Positions 26,372 through 64,000 of a stretch of 64,000 nt of DNA are shown piece after piece. The stretch covers positions 1-64,000 of the forward strand of contig NZ_JAVCAP010000002.1 of the NCBI RefSeq assembly GCF_030769565.1. The letters run 5' to 3'. Source of the DNA: Methylophilus aquaticus. GTDB taxonomy: Bacteria > Pseudomonadota > Gammaproteobacteria > Burkholderiales > Methylophilaceae. The notes under the pieces were generated by a model, which saw only the letters and a program-made list of their open reading frames with translations, was not told the DNA's origin and made no database searches. A program made the position numbers and the translations under genes. Position 1 is the first letter of the stretch, and each line of letters starts with the position of its first letter.

Positions 26372-26452
26372 CATGAGATGAATAAACATCACAGGTGAAC
26401 CACTGTGATGTGATTGGCTCAAAGCTAAATAACGCAGATTGAGAGGGCAAGT

Positions 26453-26641
26453 ATGCAATGGTTAAAGCAATGTTGGGAGCGTATCCGCCAGTTATCCGGT
26501 GATGATGCCTATGACCGCTATCTGGCGCACTATGCCGAGCAGCACGCCGACCTGCCCGAAGCCGGTCCTCCCTTGTCTCGCGCCGCCTTTTTCAGGCAAT
26601 GGCAGGATCAAAAGTGGAAAGGGATTAAACGGTGTTGTTAA
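26453..26641 (+). CDS. YbdD/YjiX family protein, partner of CstA
   Basis: This 62-residue protein has the family pattern of a helical N-terminus, YDRYLAHYAEQH, FFRQWQDQKWKG and the terminal RCC. Such genes accompany cstA or btsT and appear needed for transport in enterobacteria. GAGAGGG lies ahead of the ATG. The last 10 nt overlap the start of the next gene. Confidence 0.85.
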   Translation: MQWLKQCWERIRQLSGDDAYDRYLAHYAEQHADLPEAGPPLSRAAFFRQWQDQKWKGIKRCC

Positions 26642-51132: not shown

Positions 51133-52317
51133 TTAATTTCGCATTAGTAAGTTTTCTATTTCTTTTGGCAAATCAGTAAGCTTTGAAACGACTCTAGTTT
51201 TGATTGGTAGCTTTGCTTGCTCTATAATTGAAGCTGTGTTTCCGTCACATCTAAAAATATCAACATGAGGCAAATAAGTGGCATGAAGTATGTCACCAAA
51301 ATCACTGTTTTTTGCTTTGCGCGAAGTCAGTGAGTTTAGCTTCACTAAATTCACTGATAATGTCGTAAGAGTTAGCAGAGAAGGGCACAGTTCCCAGCTG
51401 ATTTCTTGATTAGATGTTGAAGCATGGCTTACATTTAGACTTTTGAGCATGCTAATTGGTAAAGAATTTAATAAACCACTGAAACTTTCATTCATCCTAC
51501 TCTTAATCTGGCTGTCGCTGAGCCCCTCTAGTTTGTAGTCATTTGCTAACACAGTCGATTCGTTCTTAAGTTGCTCTAATGACTTCAATAAGTTTCCTCC
51601 TATTTCTCGAAGAAAAGATGATAGCTGAGTTGCTTCATCCCATGAGAGTTCATACCATTTACTAATGTTTTCAAGCTTTGAAAGTGAGTCTGAAAGCAGT
51701 CTGACAAAATTAGCTGTTGACCCATTATTAAAATATGATTGCGCAGCAAGTTTTGCACTTTCCTCCGTCAAAGGATATTTGCTACAAATCTCTTTGGCAA
51801 ATGAGTCTACAGTGCCTTTTAAATATCCTGCGGCATTTTTAACACTGCCATCTGGGTTAAAAGATTTTCTTTGAGCTTGTCGTCTCTTTTTTCTATCTGG
51901 TATTTTAGAGATATTTTCTCTAATATCATCGGCCAAATAACTGAATTCTTTTATATCAGCAAGGCTTGGAAACCAAATACCATCATCATTAAGATGGTTT
52001 AATTGAGTTGGTATTGGCCGCATGTTACTAAGAGATTCAATTTCATTTTCAATTACAAAAACATACGAAACCAAACATTTGCATCCACAAAATCTCTTAA
52101 TAGTTTCTAGCCGTTGTGATGATGACAATCTATCTTCTGTTTTTATTGGGGCGGCCTCGATTATGTTGATATGACTGAATCTGAACTCAATTTTATTTTC
52201 ATCACGGAGCTGTAGGAGCTTACTCTCTATTCTATTTAACTCAGGAGTTCTCCTAGAGGCATCACTAAAAATGGAATAGTCACTACTGTCGAGGTAAACT
52301 ACTAAAGGTCTACTCAT
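51133..52317 (-). CDS. Putative PIN-like nuclease, A+T-rich, unknown family
   Basis: I do not recognise a named family. The 394-residue protein begins MSRPLVVYLDSSDYSIFSD, with acidic residues Asp10 and Asp13 after a beta strand. Glu54 lies in SHINIIEAAP. The C-terminus has SDFGDILHATYLPHVDIFRC with Asp339, Asp342, Asp353 and Asp358. This spacing at the two ends matches the acidic cluster of PIN-domain nucleases with a large helical insertion (about 90-320). Base composition is visibly more A+T-rich than polA next door, suggesting transfer. The ATG lies 4 nt after the polA stop, so it may depend on polA transcription. Confidence 0.6.
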   Translation of the reverse strand: MSRPLVVYLDSSDYSIFSDASRRTPELNRIESKLLQLRDENKIEFRFSHINIIEAAPIKTEDRLSSSQRLETIKRFCGCKCLVSYVFVIENEIESLSNMRPIPTQLNHLNDDGIWFPSLADIKEFSYLADDIRENISKIPDRKKRRQAQRKSFNPDGSVKNAAGYLKGTVDSFAKEICSKYPLTEESAKLAAQSYFNNGSTANFVRLLSDSLSKLENISKWYELSWDEATQLSSFLREIGGNLLKSLEQLKNESTVLANDYKLEGLSDSQIKSRMNESFSGLLNSLPISMLKSLNVSHASTSNQEISWELCPSLLTLTTLSVNLVKLNSLTSRKAKNSDFGDILHATYLPHVDIFRCDGNTASIIEQAKLPIKTRVVSKLTDLPKEIENLLMRN

Positions 52318-60163: not shown

Positions 60164-62344
60164 TTATATTTTTTCCAGCTTGGCATATTCCAGCATCAGT
60201 GTTTTCAGGCCCGCACTGCCAAAGTTGATTTTCACCGCCAGATCGCTGGCGTTGCCTTCATAGCTGACCACCACGCCTTCGCCAAACTTGCCGTGGCGCA
60301 CGGACTGCCCGATTTTAAACGGGTAGCTGGAATGTGCAACCGGGGGCACGCCGGGTTTTGCGGTATATTGCCCACCTGCGGCATAGGATTTGGCCACGGG
60401 TTTGCTATTCAGGCGTTTGGTCAGTTCCGCCGGAATTTCATCCAGAAAGCGCGAGGCAATGCCGTAACGCACCTGTCCATGCAGCATACGGCTCTGTGCA
60501 TAGCTTAAATACAAGCGTTGACGGGCGCGGGTGACGGCCACATACATCAAGCGGCGTTCTTCTTCCAGGCCGCCGTTTTCGTAGGCGGCTTGCTCGTGCG
60601 GAAACAGGCCTTCTTCCACTCCGCTGATAAATACGGTATGAAACTCCAGCCCCTTGGCGGCATGCACCGTCATCAGTTGCAGCGCTTCATGGCCAACATC
60701 GGCCTGATGGTCACCGGCTTCCAGGCTGGCATGGTTTAAAAACTGGGTCATCAGGTCTGCATCTTCTTCCATATTATGGTGATTGCCCAGATCCTGCTTG
60801 CTGAAGGCAACCGCCGCCGTGACCAGTTCCTTCAGGTTTTCGATGCGGTCTTCGCCTTCCTTGTCGTTTTGGTAGTGCGCCATCAGGCCACTCACCGTCG
60901 TCACCATTTCAGCTACTTCGCCCAGCGCGATGCCATAGGCCTGGTCCACCATGTGGCGGATGAGGGCAACAAAACCGTCCAGCCCTTTGCTGCCCAGCTT
61001 GCCTTCGCCCACTTTGTTGGTGGCCGCTTGCCACAGGCTGCATTCATTTTGGCGCGCGGCTTCCTGTAGCTGTTCCAGGCTGCGGGCACCGATGCCACGC
61101 GGGGGGAAGTTAATGATGCGCAAGAGTGCGGTATCGTCGTTGGCATTGCCAATCAGGCGCATATACGCCAGCGCATGTTTGACCTCAGCCCGCTCAAAAA
61201 AGCGCAAGCCGCCATACACGCGGTAAGGAATGTTGGATGAGAACAGGGTGTGTTCCAAAATGCGAGATTGCGCATTGCTGCGGTAAAGCAGGGCGATATC
61301 GCCCAGTGCCACCCCTTCGTTTTGCAGCATGTTCACTTCATCGACAATAAACTGTGCTTCGTCCGTGTCGTTGTAGGCGTCATAAATGCGGATGGGCTCG
61401 CCTTTACCTGCCGAGGTCCACAGGTTTTTGCCAAGACGGTTTTGGTTGTTGCTGATAATGGCGTTGGCTGCATCAAGAATATTGCTGTGCGAACGGTAGT
61501 TTTCTTCCAGCTTGACGATGTTTTGTACCTGGAAGTCACGCTGGAAATCGCTCATATTGCCAACGCGTGCCCCACGAAAAGCGTAAATGCTCTGATCATC
61601 GTCGCCCACGGCAAAAATGCTGTTGTGTGCCCCGCCCAGCAGTTTCAGCCACAGATATTGCAGGCGGTTGGTATCCTGAAACTCATCCACCAGAATGTAC
61701 TGAAAACGCTGCTGGTAATGGGCGCGGATGTGCGGCTCGCGCTCCAGCAGTTCATAGCAGCGCAATAACAGTTCAGCAAAATCTGCAACGCCTTCGCGAT
61801 TGCATTGCTGGTCATAGGCGTCATAAATTTCGCGCAGTTTCTGGCTATGGCCGTCATAAGCATCTACCGTATGCGCACGCAGGCCTTCTTCCTTGCAGCT
61901 ATTGATATAACCCATGACCTGCTTGGGTGGGTATTTTTCGTCATCCACATTCATTACTTTCATCACGCGCTTGATCGCGGAAAGCTGGTCAGCCGTATCC
62001 AGGATCTGAAAGGTGTTGGGCAAGCCAGCTTCGCGGTAATGGGCGCGCAACATGCGGTTACACAAGCCATGGAAAGTGCCGGCCCACATGCCACGCGTGT
62101 TGATCGGCAGCATACTGGTCAAGCGGGTGAGCATTTCTTTGGCGGCTTTGTTGGTAAACGTCACCGCCATCAGGCCCATGGGCGAGGTTTGCCCGGTTTG
62201 AATCAGCCAGGCAATGCGGGTGGTCAGCACGCGGGTTTTGCCACTGCCAGCTCCTGCCAGTATCAGTGCAGAGACATGCGGCAGGGTGACCGCTTGCAAC
62301 TGTTTATCATTTAAGCCCTGTAATAAATTATTTTCAGAATACAT
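60164..62344 (-). CDS. uvrD: DNA helicase II (UvrD)
   Basis: UvrD unwinds DNA 3' to 5' in nucleotide excision and mismatch repair. The 726-residue SF1 helicase has AGAGSGKTRVLTTRIAWL (motif I), TFTNKAAKEM, ILVDEFQDTN (II), GDDDQSIYAFRGA (III), LEENYRSHSNIL, LMTVHAAKGLEF (V) and VAVTRARQRLYL (VI), and a C-terminal Tudor-like end with SVRHGKFGEGVVV. The start MYSENNLLQGLN at 62344 is preferred over 62425, which adds 27 residues unlike the family. Confidence 0.96.
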   Translation of the reverse strand: MYSENNLLQGLNDKQLQAVTLPHVSALILAGAGSGKTRVLTTRIAWLIQTGQTSPMGLMAVTFTNKAAKEMLTRLTSMLPINTRGMWAGTFHGLCNRMLRAHYREAGLPNTFQILDTADQLSAIKRVMKVMNVDDEKYPPKQVMGYINSCKEEGLRAHTVDAYDGHSQKLREIYDAYDQQCNREGVADFAELLLRCYELLEREPHIRAHYQQRFQYILVDEFQDTNRLQYLWLKLLGGAHNSIFAVGDDDQSIYAFRGARVGNMSDFQRDFQVQNIVKLEENYRSHSNILDAANAIISNNQNRLGKNLWTSAGKGEPIRIYDAYNDTDEAQFIVDEVNMLQNEGVALGDIALLYRSNAQSRILEHTLFSSNIPYRVYGGLRFFERAEVKHALAYMRLIGNANDDTALLRIINFPPRGIGARSLEQLQEAARQNECSLWQAATNKVGEGKLGSKGLDGFVALIRHMVDQAYGIALGEVAEMVTTVSGLMAHYQNDKEGEDRIENLKELVTAAVAFSKQDLGNHHNMEEDADLMTQFLNHASLEAGDHQADVGHEALQLMTVHAAKGLEFHTVFISGVEEGLFPHEQAAYENGGLEEERRLMYVAVTRARQRLYLSYAQSRMLHGQVRYGIASRFLDEIPAELTKRLNSKPVAKSYAAGGQYTAKPGVPPVAHSSYPFKIGQSVRHGKFGEGVVVSYEGNASDLAVKINFGSAGLKTLMLEYAKLEKI

Positions 62345-62447
62345 GTCGCTATTATCGCATGATGCAGAGGGTGCGGTGCAGGGACGTTGACTATCATGAC
62401 TCGTGCGGAGTTGTTTGAGACTCAATTGATTCGTTTAGATTTCTTCG

Positions 62448-62581
62448 GAACTTTTCAAAACGCGATGCACTCATACTTGCACGATGATGATGAGTCATCT
62501 TTCCGCTTCTTTCCTCCCTGAGCGGAAGCCTTTACGATGAGGCCTGTTGCCCCGATTTACCCCTTAATCGGGGCTTTTTTT
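62448..62581 (+). ncRNA. Putative orphan small RNA with anti-Shine-Dalgarno loop
   Basis: The flanking genes uvrD and trmL are both on the minus strand, yet a textbook plus-strand terminator ends this stretch. Three hairpins can be drawn: GATGA/TCATC (62486-62499); TTCCGCT (62501-62507) with AGCGGAA (62521-62527), whose 13-nt loop TCTTTCCTCCCTG exposes CCTCC; and the terminator. A CU-rich anti-SD loop is a mark of sRNAs that bind ribosome binding sites. The 5' end is unsure: TTGAGA (62415) with TAGATT (62436) has a short 15-nt spacer. Confidence 0.5.
62549..62581 (+). terminator. Intrinsic terminator of the putative sRNA
   Basis: GCCCCGATT (62549-62557) pairs with AATCGGGGC (62566-62574) over 8 nt and is followed by seven T (62575-62581). 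The opposite strand has no T run after the hairpin, so it cannot serve trmL or uvrD. Confidence 0.85.
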
Positions 62582-62597
62582 GTCTATCGATTGTGTA

Positions 62598-63062
62598 TCA
62601 GATACCGCCGGTAAATCCAACTTGCCGCCAGGCTTCGTATAGTAAAATGGCTGCTGAGTTTGACAGGTTTAAACTGCGGCTATGCGGCATCATTGGCAGA
62701 CGTATTCGGTATTCTGGTAAAAACTCGGCGCGAATATCTTCTGGCAGACCCCGCGACTCGGGGCCAAATACAAACACATCTTCATCCTTAAATTGCAAGT
62801 CAGTGTGGCGTGTACTGCCTTTGGTGGTCAGTGCAAACATGCGTTTTCCTGCCAGTGCCTGCTGGCAGGCAGGCCAGTGTTCATAGACTTGCAGGTCGGC
62901 ATACTCATGGTAATCGAGGCCTGCGCGCTTGAGGTGTTTGTCCGTGAGTTCAAAGCCCAGTGGCTTGACCAGGTGCAGTTTTGCCCCTGCATTCGCACAC
63001 AGCCGGATGATATTTCCGGTATTTGGGGGAATTTCTGGTTCGAAAAGCACGATATGAAACAT
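62598..63062 (-). CDS. trmL: tRNA (cytidine/uridine-34-2'-O)-methyltransferase
   Basis: TrmL methylates the wobble ribose of certain leucine tRNAs. The 154-residue SPOUT protein starts MFHIVLFEPEIPPNTGNIIR and has the knot motifs VFGPESRGLP and LPMMPHSRSLNLSNSAAILL. Length equals the E. coli enzyme (157) within a few residues. The longer reading to 63158 would overlap the divergent pilB start and is rejected. Confidence 0.94.
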   Translation of the reverse strand: MFHIVLFEPEIPPNTGNIIRLCANAGAKLHLVKPLGFELTDKHLKRAGLDYHEYADLQVYEHWPACQQALAGKRMFALTTKGSTRHTDLQFKDEDVFVFGPESRGLPEDIRAEFLPEYRIRLPMMPHSRSLNLSNSAAILLYEAWRQVGFTGGI

Positions 63063-63151
63063 TTTTTGCAGCTTGTTTGTGAACGTCAAGTTAGAATGTA
63101 GGTGATATGATAGACCATAAAAGTCTGTTTTAAGAGAACAATTACAACGCC

Positions 63152-64000
63152 ATGGCACGTCCCGAAAAAATCAGATTAGGTGAAATTCTGGTCAGACAGA
63201 ATTTCATGAACCCTGCGCAGCTTGAGCAGGCGCTAGAAGAACAGCGAAAAACGGGGCGGCGACTTGGGCGGGTGATCGCCGAAAAAGGCTATGCCAGCGA
63301 GCGTCAAATTGCAGAAGCCGTTGCGCACCAGTTAAATATTCCATTTCTTGACCTGGGTCAGTACGAGCTCGATGTCAAACAAGTCCATAAGCTGCCAGAG
63401 GTACAGGCTAGACGGTTTCGCGCCATTTTACTTGAAGAAAAAATAAACAGTTTCGTAATCGGCATGGTGGATCCTTCGGATGTCTATGCGTATGACGAGC
63501 TGGTCAGACTGCTTAAGCGTGACATTGAAATTGTCGTTGTGCAGGAAAGCCTGCTGATGCAGACGATAGACCGGTCCTATCGCTTGACTGAGGAAATATC
63601 CTCACTGGCACTGGAGCTACAAGAGGATCTGGCGGCCAGCAATGTCGATCTGGCCAGCCTGATGGGCGTGGATCTCGGGATTGATGATGCGCCAGTGGTT
63701 AAGTTGCTGCAAACAATCTTCGAGGATGCAGTGCAGGTTCGCGCTTCGGATATTCACATTGAGCCTCAAGAAAATAAGCTGCTGATCCGGTTCCGGATTG
63801 ATGGTGTCATGCATTTTCAGACGCAGTCCGACATTAAAATTGTGTCTGCCCTGATTATGCGTCTCAAAATTATGGCGGGCCTGGATATTTCGGAAAAACG
63901 GCTGCCACAGGATGGTCGTTTTGGCTTTACGGTCAAAGGCAAGTCAGTGGATATGCGTATCTCCACCATGCCTACCCAATATGGCGAAACGGTCGTGATG
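63152..64000 (+). CDS. PilB/GspE-type secretion ATPase, 5' part (partial)
   Basis: The gene runs off the window after 283 codons with no stop. The N-terminus has an MshEN-type domain made of two related 24-residue units, RLGEILVRQNFMNPAQLEQA and RLGRVIAEKGYASERQIAEA, the pattern that binds c-di-GMP in MshE. The GspE N2 part follows with VRASDIHIEPQENKLLIRFR (about residues 197-216). The nucleotide-binding site lies beyond the end. Such ATPases drive type IV pilus extension or type II secretion. Confidence 0.9.
   Translation, partial: MARPEKIRLGEILVRQNFMNPAQLEQALEEQRKTGRRLGRVIAEKGYASERQIAEAVAHQLNIPFLDLGQYELDVKQVHKLPEVQARRFRAILLEEKINSFVIGMVDPSDVYAYDELVRLLKRDIEIVVVQESLLMQTIDRSYRLTEEISSLALELQEDLAASNVDLASLMGVDLGIDDAPVVKLLQTIFEDAVQVRASDIHIEPQENKLLIRFRIDGVMHFQTQSDIKIVSALIMRLKIMAGLDISEKRLPQDGRFGFTVKGKSVDMRISTMPTQYGETVVM

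Follow-up and report, generated by a model that had tools for sequence, protein, structure and literature searches.

Rfam family RF02837 carries the title "Burkholderia RNA 7 (anti-hemB)", and on this basis we equate it with the sRNA Bc7. In Burkholderia cenocepacia, anti-hemB is an alternative name of ncS04, a 105-nt RNA with the 3' end set by RACE and dRNA-seq, which is shown in a Northern blot figure, is described as Hfq-binding with reference to other work, and demonstrates no significant change across seven conditions including osmotic stress and low pH (Table 2 of PMC5688073). According to a review, Bc7 was co-purified with Hfq, hemB is its predicted mRNA target, and RybB of S. Paratyphi is listed as its homolog (PMC6321483); Anti-hemB is also listed among Rfam homologues (PMC3521395). 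In the literature found, available to us in part, the family is named without a tested function or known regulator. A text search of the available parts of PMC5688073 and PMC6321483 yields no mention of RpoE, the words ncS04 and hemB are absent from the available part of PMC10987360, and a literature search, mostly without subscription papers, found no link between RF02837 and RpoE, which is weak evidence of novelty.

The micA and rybB sRNA genes have GGAACTTTT and GTCAAA as their sigma-E motifs (PMC1804206), and the RpoE –35 box is given elsewhere as GGAACTT (PMC8103513); a different sigma-E –35 motif has been reported in Neisseria, a betaproteobacterium (PMC2893595). The Bordetella sRNA S17, resembling RF02278, represses via pairing at ribosome-binding sites and uses a sigma-A promoter (PMC11722255).

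The sRNA Locus

The first-pass annotation of the window (the whole stretch of 64,000 nt of Methylophilus aquaticus DNA analyzed here) had proposed an orphan sRNA gene on the plus strand between uvrD and trmL, with an anti-Shine–Dalgarno loop, and the sequence evidence supports this proposal. The locus comprises:

60164–62344, minus strand: uvrD, the divergent neighbor, present in 51 of the 51 Methylophilaceae loci examined
62501–62527, plus strand: hairpin SL1 with a CU-rich loop at 62508–62520, complementary to Shine–Dalgarno sequences and the first seed candidate
62549–62581, plus strand: intrinsic terminator, a 9-bp stem (62549–62557/62566–62574, 6 GC) followed by TTTTTTT at 62575–62581
62558–62565, plus strand: terminator loop TACCCCTT, the second CU-rich unpaired stretch
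62598–63065, minus strand: trmL, the convergent neighbor, matching TIGR00185 above the cut-off

Direct reading bears out the 7-bp hairpin, formed by TTCCGCT (62501–62507) and AGCGGAA (62521–62527) around the loop TCTTTCCTCCCTG, with a T-G pair added by folding. The seven-T terminator is likewise found on the plus strand as annotated, with no plus-strand protein gene directly before it, both uvrD and trmL being encoded on the minus strand; beyond trmL a pilB-like gene starts on the plus strand. The two top profiles for uvrD are both DNA helicase II; their scores, 995 and 959 bits, fall slightly short of the respective curated cut-offs.

The region 62448–62581 folds at –42.5 kcal/mol (z-score –4.55), and none of 200 shuffled sequences folds as low. 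Three terminator-like sites are found in 61000–64000 compared to 3.5 expected by shuffling, so that their number is not unusual; among the three, the site at 62549–62581 stands out by the highest number of pairs and the longest run of T. On the minus strand no T run follows this hairpin, hence it is no obvious terminator for trmL. The annotated range, 62448–62581, is slightly off, as the promoter boxes begin at 62447 and the transcript probably starts near 62481; the annotation also lacked the 5' hairpin, the second CU-rich loop (that of the terminator) and the RpoE-type promoter.

Family Membership and Distribution

Contrary to the first-pass annotation, which did not recognize a described family, the sRNA matches a known one over the full model:

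62500–62581, plus strand: match to RF02837 (anti-hemB), model positions 1–81 of 81, 52.9 bits (gathering cut-off 49.5), E = 1.6e-9

This match rules out the reading of the sRNA as a new family. The SL1 hairpin with the UCCUCCCUGA loop, SL2 and the terminator are all recovered by the model alignment, folds and covariation. A position next to hemB, common in the family and not defining it, is not observed here; it is uvrD that occupies this place in all 51 Methylophilaceae loci. Judged by its sequence, the feature is a real sRNA gene and a new member of RF02837.

The genome contains one RF02837 copy over the cut-off. Among 120 sampled Methylophilaceae genomes, RF02837 is detected at E 0.001 in 85 and above the cut-off in 74; all 14 listed genomes of the same genus, this one included, are above it. 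Across the class, 124 of 274 genomes match and 14 pass the cut-off; 3 of the 14 control genomes also give weak matches below the cut-off, so such matches are poor evidence by themselves.

Other Rfam families do not fit. The score for RF02278 (toxic small RNA) is 19.8 bits against the cut-off of 50, and that for Spot 42, 21.8 bits against 80; suhB, sX13, NsiR1 and others are also far below their cut-offs. Neither MicA nor RybB matches the feature at E up to 10, so the homology to the RybB family listed in the review is not borne out by Rfam. A genome search for RF02278 at E 0.001 gave no match, and none was obtained in the control genomes either, so this result does not demonstrate absence.

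Several additional observations concern RF02837-like sequences elsewhere. A second match in the same genome (L002:1501-1565, G000:C1:150318-150382) scores 28.1 bits, below the cut-off, and has CU-rich CTTCCCTG and CCTTTCCCG upstream of a strong terminator; it is possibly another anti-Shine–Dalgarno sRNA, and similar weak matches occur in some other genomes of the genus. Outside Methylophilaceae, clusters of two to four matches are seen at G290:C33:13148-13886, G382:C3:217579-218301, G381:C1:2994116-2994385, and G269:C7:32511-32782. A typical copy with its promoter is also present on a MAG contig labeled Klebsiella pneumoniae (L085), probably a mis-assigned bin.

RNA Structure and Conservation

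Further elements of the transcript are:

62481 (uncertain by a few bases), plus strand: predicted transcription start, based on the distance from the –10 box, the point where conservation sets in and the length of ncS04
62483–62499, plus strand: 5' hairpin SL0 (62483–62488 paired with 62494–62499), outside the Rfam model, from the fold and a helix in 47 relatives
62528–62543, plus strand: hairpin SL2, from the fold and both-sided changes in 5 of 6 pairs
62484–62581, plus strand: match to model R1 (105 positions, four hairpins), 66.3 bits, E = 1.6e-13

For the start, the 105-nt length of ncS04 was projected on a B. ambifaria relative. The transcript is probably about 101 nt long (approximately 62481–62581), that is, longer than the Rfam model. 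Conservation was analyzed in two alignments: A1, comprising 41 of the 51 Methylophilaceae loci, and A3, a plain MAFFT alignment of 47 sequences hand-chosen for diversity and a complete terminator from 148 copies picked by CCTCCCT. Four rows of A3 (L001, L154, L158, and L085) were retained although their 5' hairpin is visibly out of alignment.

The annotation had named conservation of the stem and loop in relatives as a check, and both are indeed conserved, with compensatory changes in the helices. In A3, 96.2% of cells are paired in the SL1 stem, 96.0% in the terminator helix, with both-sided changes in 6 of 8 pairs, and 94.3% in SL0, with both-sided changes in 4 of 5 pairs. Only 60.6% of SL2 cells are paired in this plain alignment, probably owing to a shifted register of many rows at this hairpin. 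For the four-helix structure as a whole, 86.7% of cells are paired, compared to 78.7% in shuffles and 35–51% with partners slid; cells with both-sided changes number 101, compared to 30.6 in shuffles (none of 500 reaches 101) and 6–43 with partners slid. As the structure was taken from the rows of A3 itself, it is favored over the slid versions.

All 41 rows of A1, a set retrieved with the Rfam model, contain the SL1 loop motif CCTCCCT; its presence in 47 of 47 rows of A3 is by construction, the rows having been picked via the motif. The terminator loop motif CCCCTT is found in 41 of 41 rows of A1 and 41 of 47 rows of A3. SL0, located between the promoter boxes and SL1, is seen in the copies folded, for example as AGACGGT...ACCGTCT or AGGTGA...TCACCT, and reads GATGAT...GTCATC in the window. 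We have found no published description of this 5' hairpin or of the sigma-E-type promoter.

Model R1 was built from A3, and 62484–62581 is its sole match in the window at E up to 10. As the window sequence itself belongs to the 47 rows, the match demonstrates fit rather than discovery. This longer, four-hairpin model could better the annotation.

A Putative RpoE-Type Promoter

Upstream of the predicted transcript we observe a sigma-E (RpoE)-type promoter:

62447–62455, plus strand: –35 box GGAACTTTT, identical to the sigma-E motif of micA and rybB (PMC1804206)
62471–62475, plus strand: –10 box TCATA, 17 nt after GGAACTT

The entire promoter reads GGAACTTTT-N15-TCATA (62447–62475); the –35 box agrees with the cited motif at nine of nine positions, and the –10 box has TCATA compared to the cited TCAAA core. 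In the genus alignment A2 (12 rows), GGAACT is retained in 11 rows (L156 has GTGAACT) and the –10 box is TCATA in nine and TCTTA in three (TC[AT]TA in 12 of 12), with 16–17 bases between the boxes; the upstream flank has diverged. The boxes and their spacing hence persist although the spacer and the flanks diverge.

The fixed pattern [TG]GAAC[TC][TA]-N16/17-TCNN[AGT] occurs upstream of 48 of the 51 Methylophilaceae copies (misses are L032, L167, and L170), with a mean of 0.15 and a maximum of 2 in shuffles. It is also found within 400 bases upstream of Methylophilaceae rpoE in 39 of 44 loci (shuffles 0.46, maximum 2), the count leaving out L232, which is short, and eight rpoE loci of other families, where the pattern is present in four. 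A relaxed pattern is found in 103 of 148 upstream regions and, after thinning at 60% identity, in 54 of 87, compared to 1.21 and 0.71 in dinucleotide shuffles (maximum 4); L002, L054, and L146 were dropped from this count. As the motif was noticed before being counted and many sequences are related, the shuffle figures indicate its strength and do not constitute a blind test. In the window, the fixed pattern occurs twice, at 62447 and at 26396; the latter match (26396–26424, plus strand), between a gene we take to be CstA-like and a frame starting near 26453, is probably due to chance.

The motif is shared with rpoE of the same genome, which has the same box arrangement upstream, with a spacer of 16. 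The strict pattern GGAACT-N17/18-TCWKA has three matches in the whole genome, one 224 bases before the rpoE profile match, one in the sRNA promoter and one within an ORF (window positions 51366–51394, minus strand); a reversed control gives seven, so there is no genome-wide excess. In 17 same-genome pairs of sRNA and rpoE, a looser pattern finds the boxes at the sRNA in 17 and at rpoE in 14. With an earlier, slightly different pattern, GGAACTT boxes were seen approximately 225 bases upstream in 9 of 15 rpoE loci of the genus, some of the others having TGAAC or a shifted or different –10 box. Co-occurrence of the genes is uninformative, as all 35 genomes tested have rpoE, including 14 without an sRNA match and G114 with a weak one. 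Among the listed genomes of two genera with 1.2–1.4 Mb genomes (g14 and g16), no sRNA match is found except the weak one in G114, and those tested have rpoE.

Some members of the family differ in this region. In seven loci named Burkholderia (L042, L060, L131, L132, L135, L139, and L151) the –35 box is missing, with TGGTATATGATAGC in its place, an apparent promoter switch within RF02837 judging from the upstream regions. L111 and L118, also named Burkholderia, retain GAAACTT-N17-TCATA, and in L177 and L180, outside Methylophilaceae, each of the tandem copies has GAAACTT-N17-TCTTA upstream.

The DNA suggests that RpoE may switch the sRNA on. Another reading is that this RF02837 sRNA has an ordinary sigma-70 promoter or one served by another ECF sigma factor, so that the GGAAC box has been misread as that of RpoE. 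The seven Burkholderia-named loci, in which TGGTATATGAT, resembling an extended –10 element, takes the place of the boxes, agree with this, as do the sigma-A promoter reported for the RF02278-like S17 of Bordetella and the different sigma-E –35 motif reported in Neisseria; moreover, the genome has eight RpoE-profile matches, one of them over the cut-off, and probably encodes several ECF factors. Still, a simple scan of 61000–64000 detects no sigma-70-like site on the plus strand, and the boxes with their 16–17-nt spacing persist and match the region before rpoE of the same genomes. On balance we regard this alternative as unlikely.

Genomic Neighborhood

Neighborhoods of the 51 Methylophilaceae loci were characterized by tblastn within 1.5–2 kb of the sRNA. 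In all 51, uvrD is near the sRNA and divergent from it. Of the 14 loci in the genus, 12 also have trmL, and none of the 37 other Methylophilaceae loci does. On a contig of Methylophilus sp. Leaf416 (L121), uvrD, trmL, and pilB, 88–92% identical, flank the same RNA. In nine named loci outside Methylophilaceae the divergent neighbor is hemB-like in eight and the convergent one ysxC/engB-like in five (both assigned by eye, with one of each confirmed by profile); L066 has neither.

This distribution bears on the possibility that the RNA regulates hemB or uvrD locally or as a cis-antisense RNA and does not act in trans. The family name, anti-hemB, and the divergent hemB in eight of nine loci, with uvrD in that place in Methylophilaceae, could be taken that way, but the neighbor varies by lineage while the RNA stays, in the window the RNA and uvrD point away from each other and the RNA overlaps neither this gene nor trmL, and the review (PMC6321483) names hemB as a predicted mRNA target of Bc7. 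We consider local regulation very improbable; an RNA that stays the same next to varying neighbors points to a trans-acting one. That the gene gives rise to a short mRNA encoding a small peptide, or is an orphan terminator, can practically be dismissed: there is an 18-codon frame from ATG at 62484 and an overlapping 44-aa frame from TTG 62387, but many relatives lack an ATG in the 5' hairpin and yet keep the base pairs and the loop.

Candidate Targets

The pattern AGGGAGGA-N3-11-ATG occurs at three places of the genome, and only one of them, L242, opens a frame longer than 50 aa (111 aa). The start region of this gene, CACAGGGAGGATGCAGATG (L242:1470-1514), has nine bases complementary to the sRNA loop and carries CAGGGAGGA, the one plausible site in the genome. 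Orthologues are present in 21 of 21 genomes of the genus; among the 20 with loci, AGGGAGG precedes the start in this genome alone, so that with the site in 0 of 19 relatives L242 is rejected as a conserved target. In six relatives, CAGGGAGGA-N3-11-ATG occurs at seven places in two genomes, one place being the sRNA itself.

Porin start regions, with the first ATG of each ORF taken as the start, pair with the sRNA no better than background. Out of 39 window ORFs, 14 pair at least as well as the porin gene L273 of the same genome, 7 as well as L272, 15 as well as L274, and all 39 as well as L275, the start of which is uncertain.

Proposed Role

We consider it rather probable that the gene encodes an Hfq-type, trans-acting RF02837 sRNA with an RpoE-type promoter, repressing its targets via CU-rich loops. 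On this reading, an RF02837-family sRNA of about 101 nt with four hairpins would be transcribed from the RpoE (sigma-E)-type promoter and, given that promoter, should be made when RpoE is released by envelope stress. Hfq may bind at its usual site, the 3'-terminal U run, and the CU-rich stretches UCUUUCCUCCCUG and UACCCCUU would pair with purine-rich Shine–Dalgarno regions of target mRNAs, blocking translation. The sRNA could then provide repression within the RpoE response, the part played by MicA and RybB in enteric bacteria.

More broadly, we give about an even chance to RF02837 being the repressing sRNA arm of the RpoE response in much of Betaproteobacteria and some Gammaproteobacteria, a counterpart of MicA and RybB unrelated to them in Rfam, with a part of Burkholderia having switched to a housekeeping-type promoter. 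Such a switch would fit the flat expression of ncS04. We count against RpoE control the pattern being found at just four of eight rpoE loci outside Methylophilaceae, the reported Neisseria motif, the Burkholderia loci without the box and the flat ncS04 expression. If the promoter reading holds, RpoE becomes a testable trigger for a family of many Betaproteobacteria, and RpoE would be coupled to a repressing sRNA outside the enteric lineage too.

Comparison With Known Systems

CU-rich anti-Shine–Dalgarno stretches are a feature of alpha-proteobacterial CuckooRNAs. They are also present in NmsR of Neisseria (PMC5688073), and the likeness to neisserial sibling sRNAs drawn in the first-pass annotation is apt as a matter of design only; at E up to 10 there are 13 Rfam matches, with neither NmsR nor CuckooRNAs recognizable among them, and Rfam may not include both.

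With the double-hairpin RNAs of RF02278 (ncS03/05/27/62) and S17 of Bordetella the window RNA shares a short length, CU-rich unpaired stretches against ribosome-binding sites and a U-run terminator (PMC5688073, PMC11722255), but its RF02278 score is far below the cut-off (19.8 bits). Like micA and rybB, the gene stands behind a GGAACTTTT-type sigma-E promoter (PMC1804206); unlike MicA and RybB, the window RNA has no Rfam match to these families and no supported pairing with porin genes.

The closest system is RF02837 itself, represented by ncS04, with a full-length match above the cut-off, the CU-rich SL1 loop, SL2, and the terminator in common, and with 105 nt of ncS04 near the 101 nt predicted here. 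Compared to the Rfam model, the SL1 loop of the window RNA is two bases longer and the 5' hairpin lies outside. Its neighbors are uvrD and trmL, those elsewhere being hemB and often ysxC. The terminator loop CCCCTT of the window RNA is not seen in the Burkholderia copies inspected, and the window gene has the RpoE-type –35 box that is absent from the seven Burkholderia-named loci.
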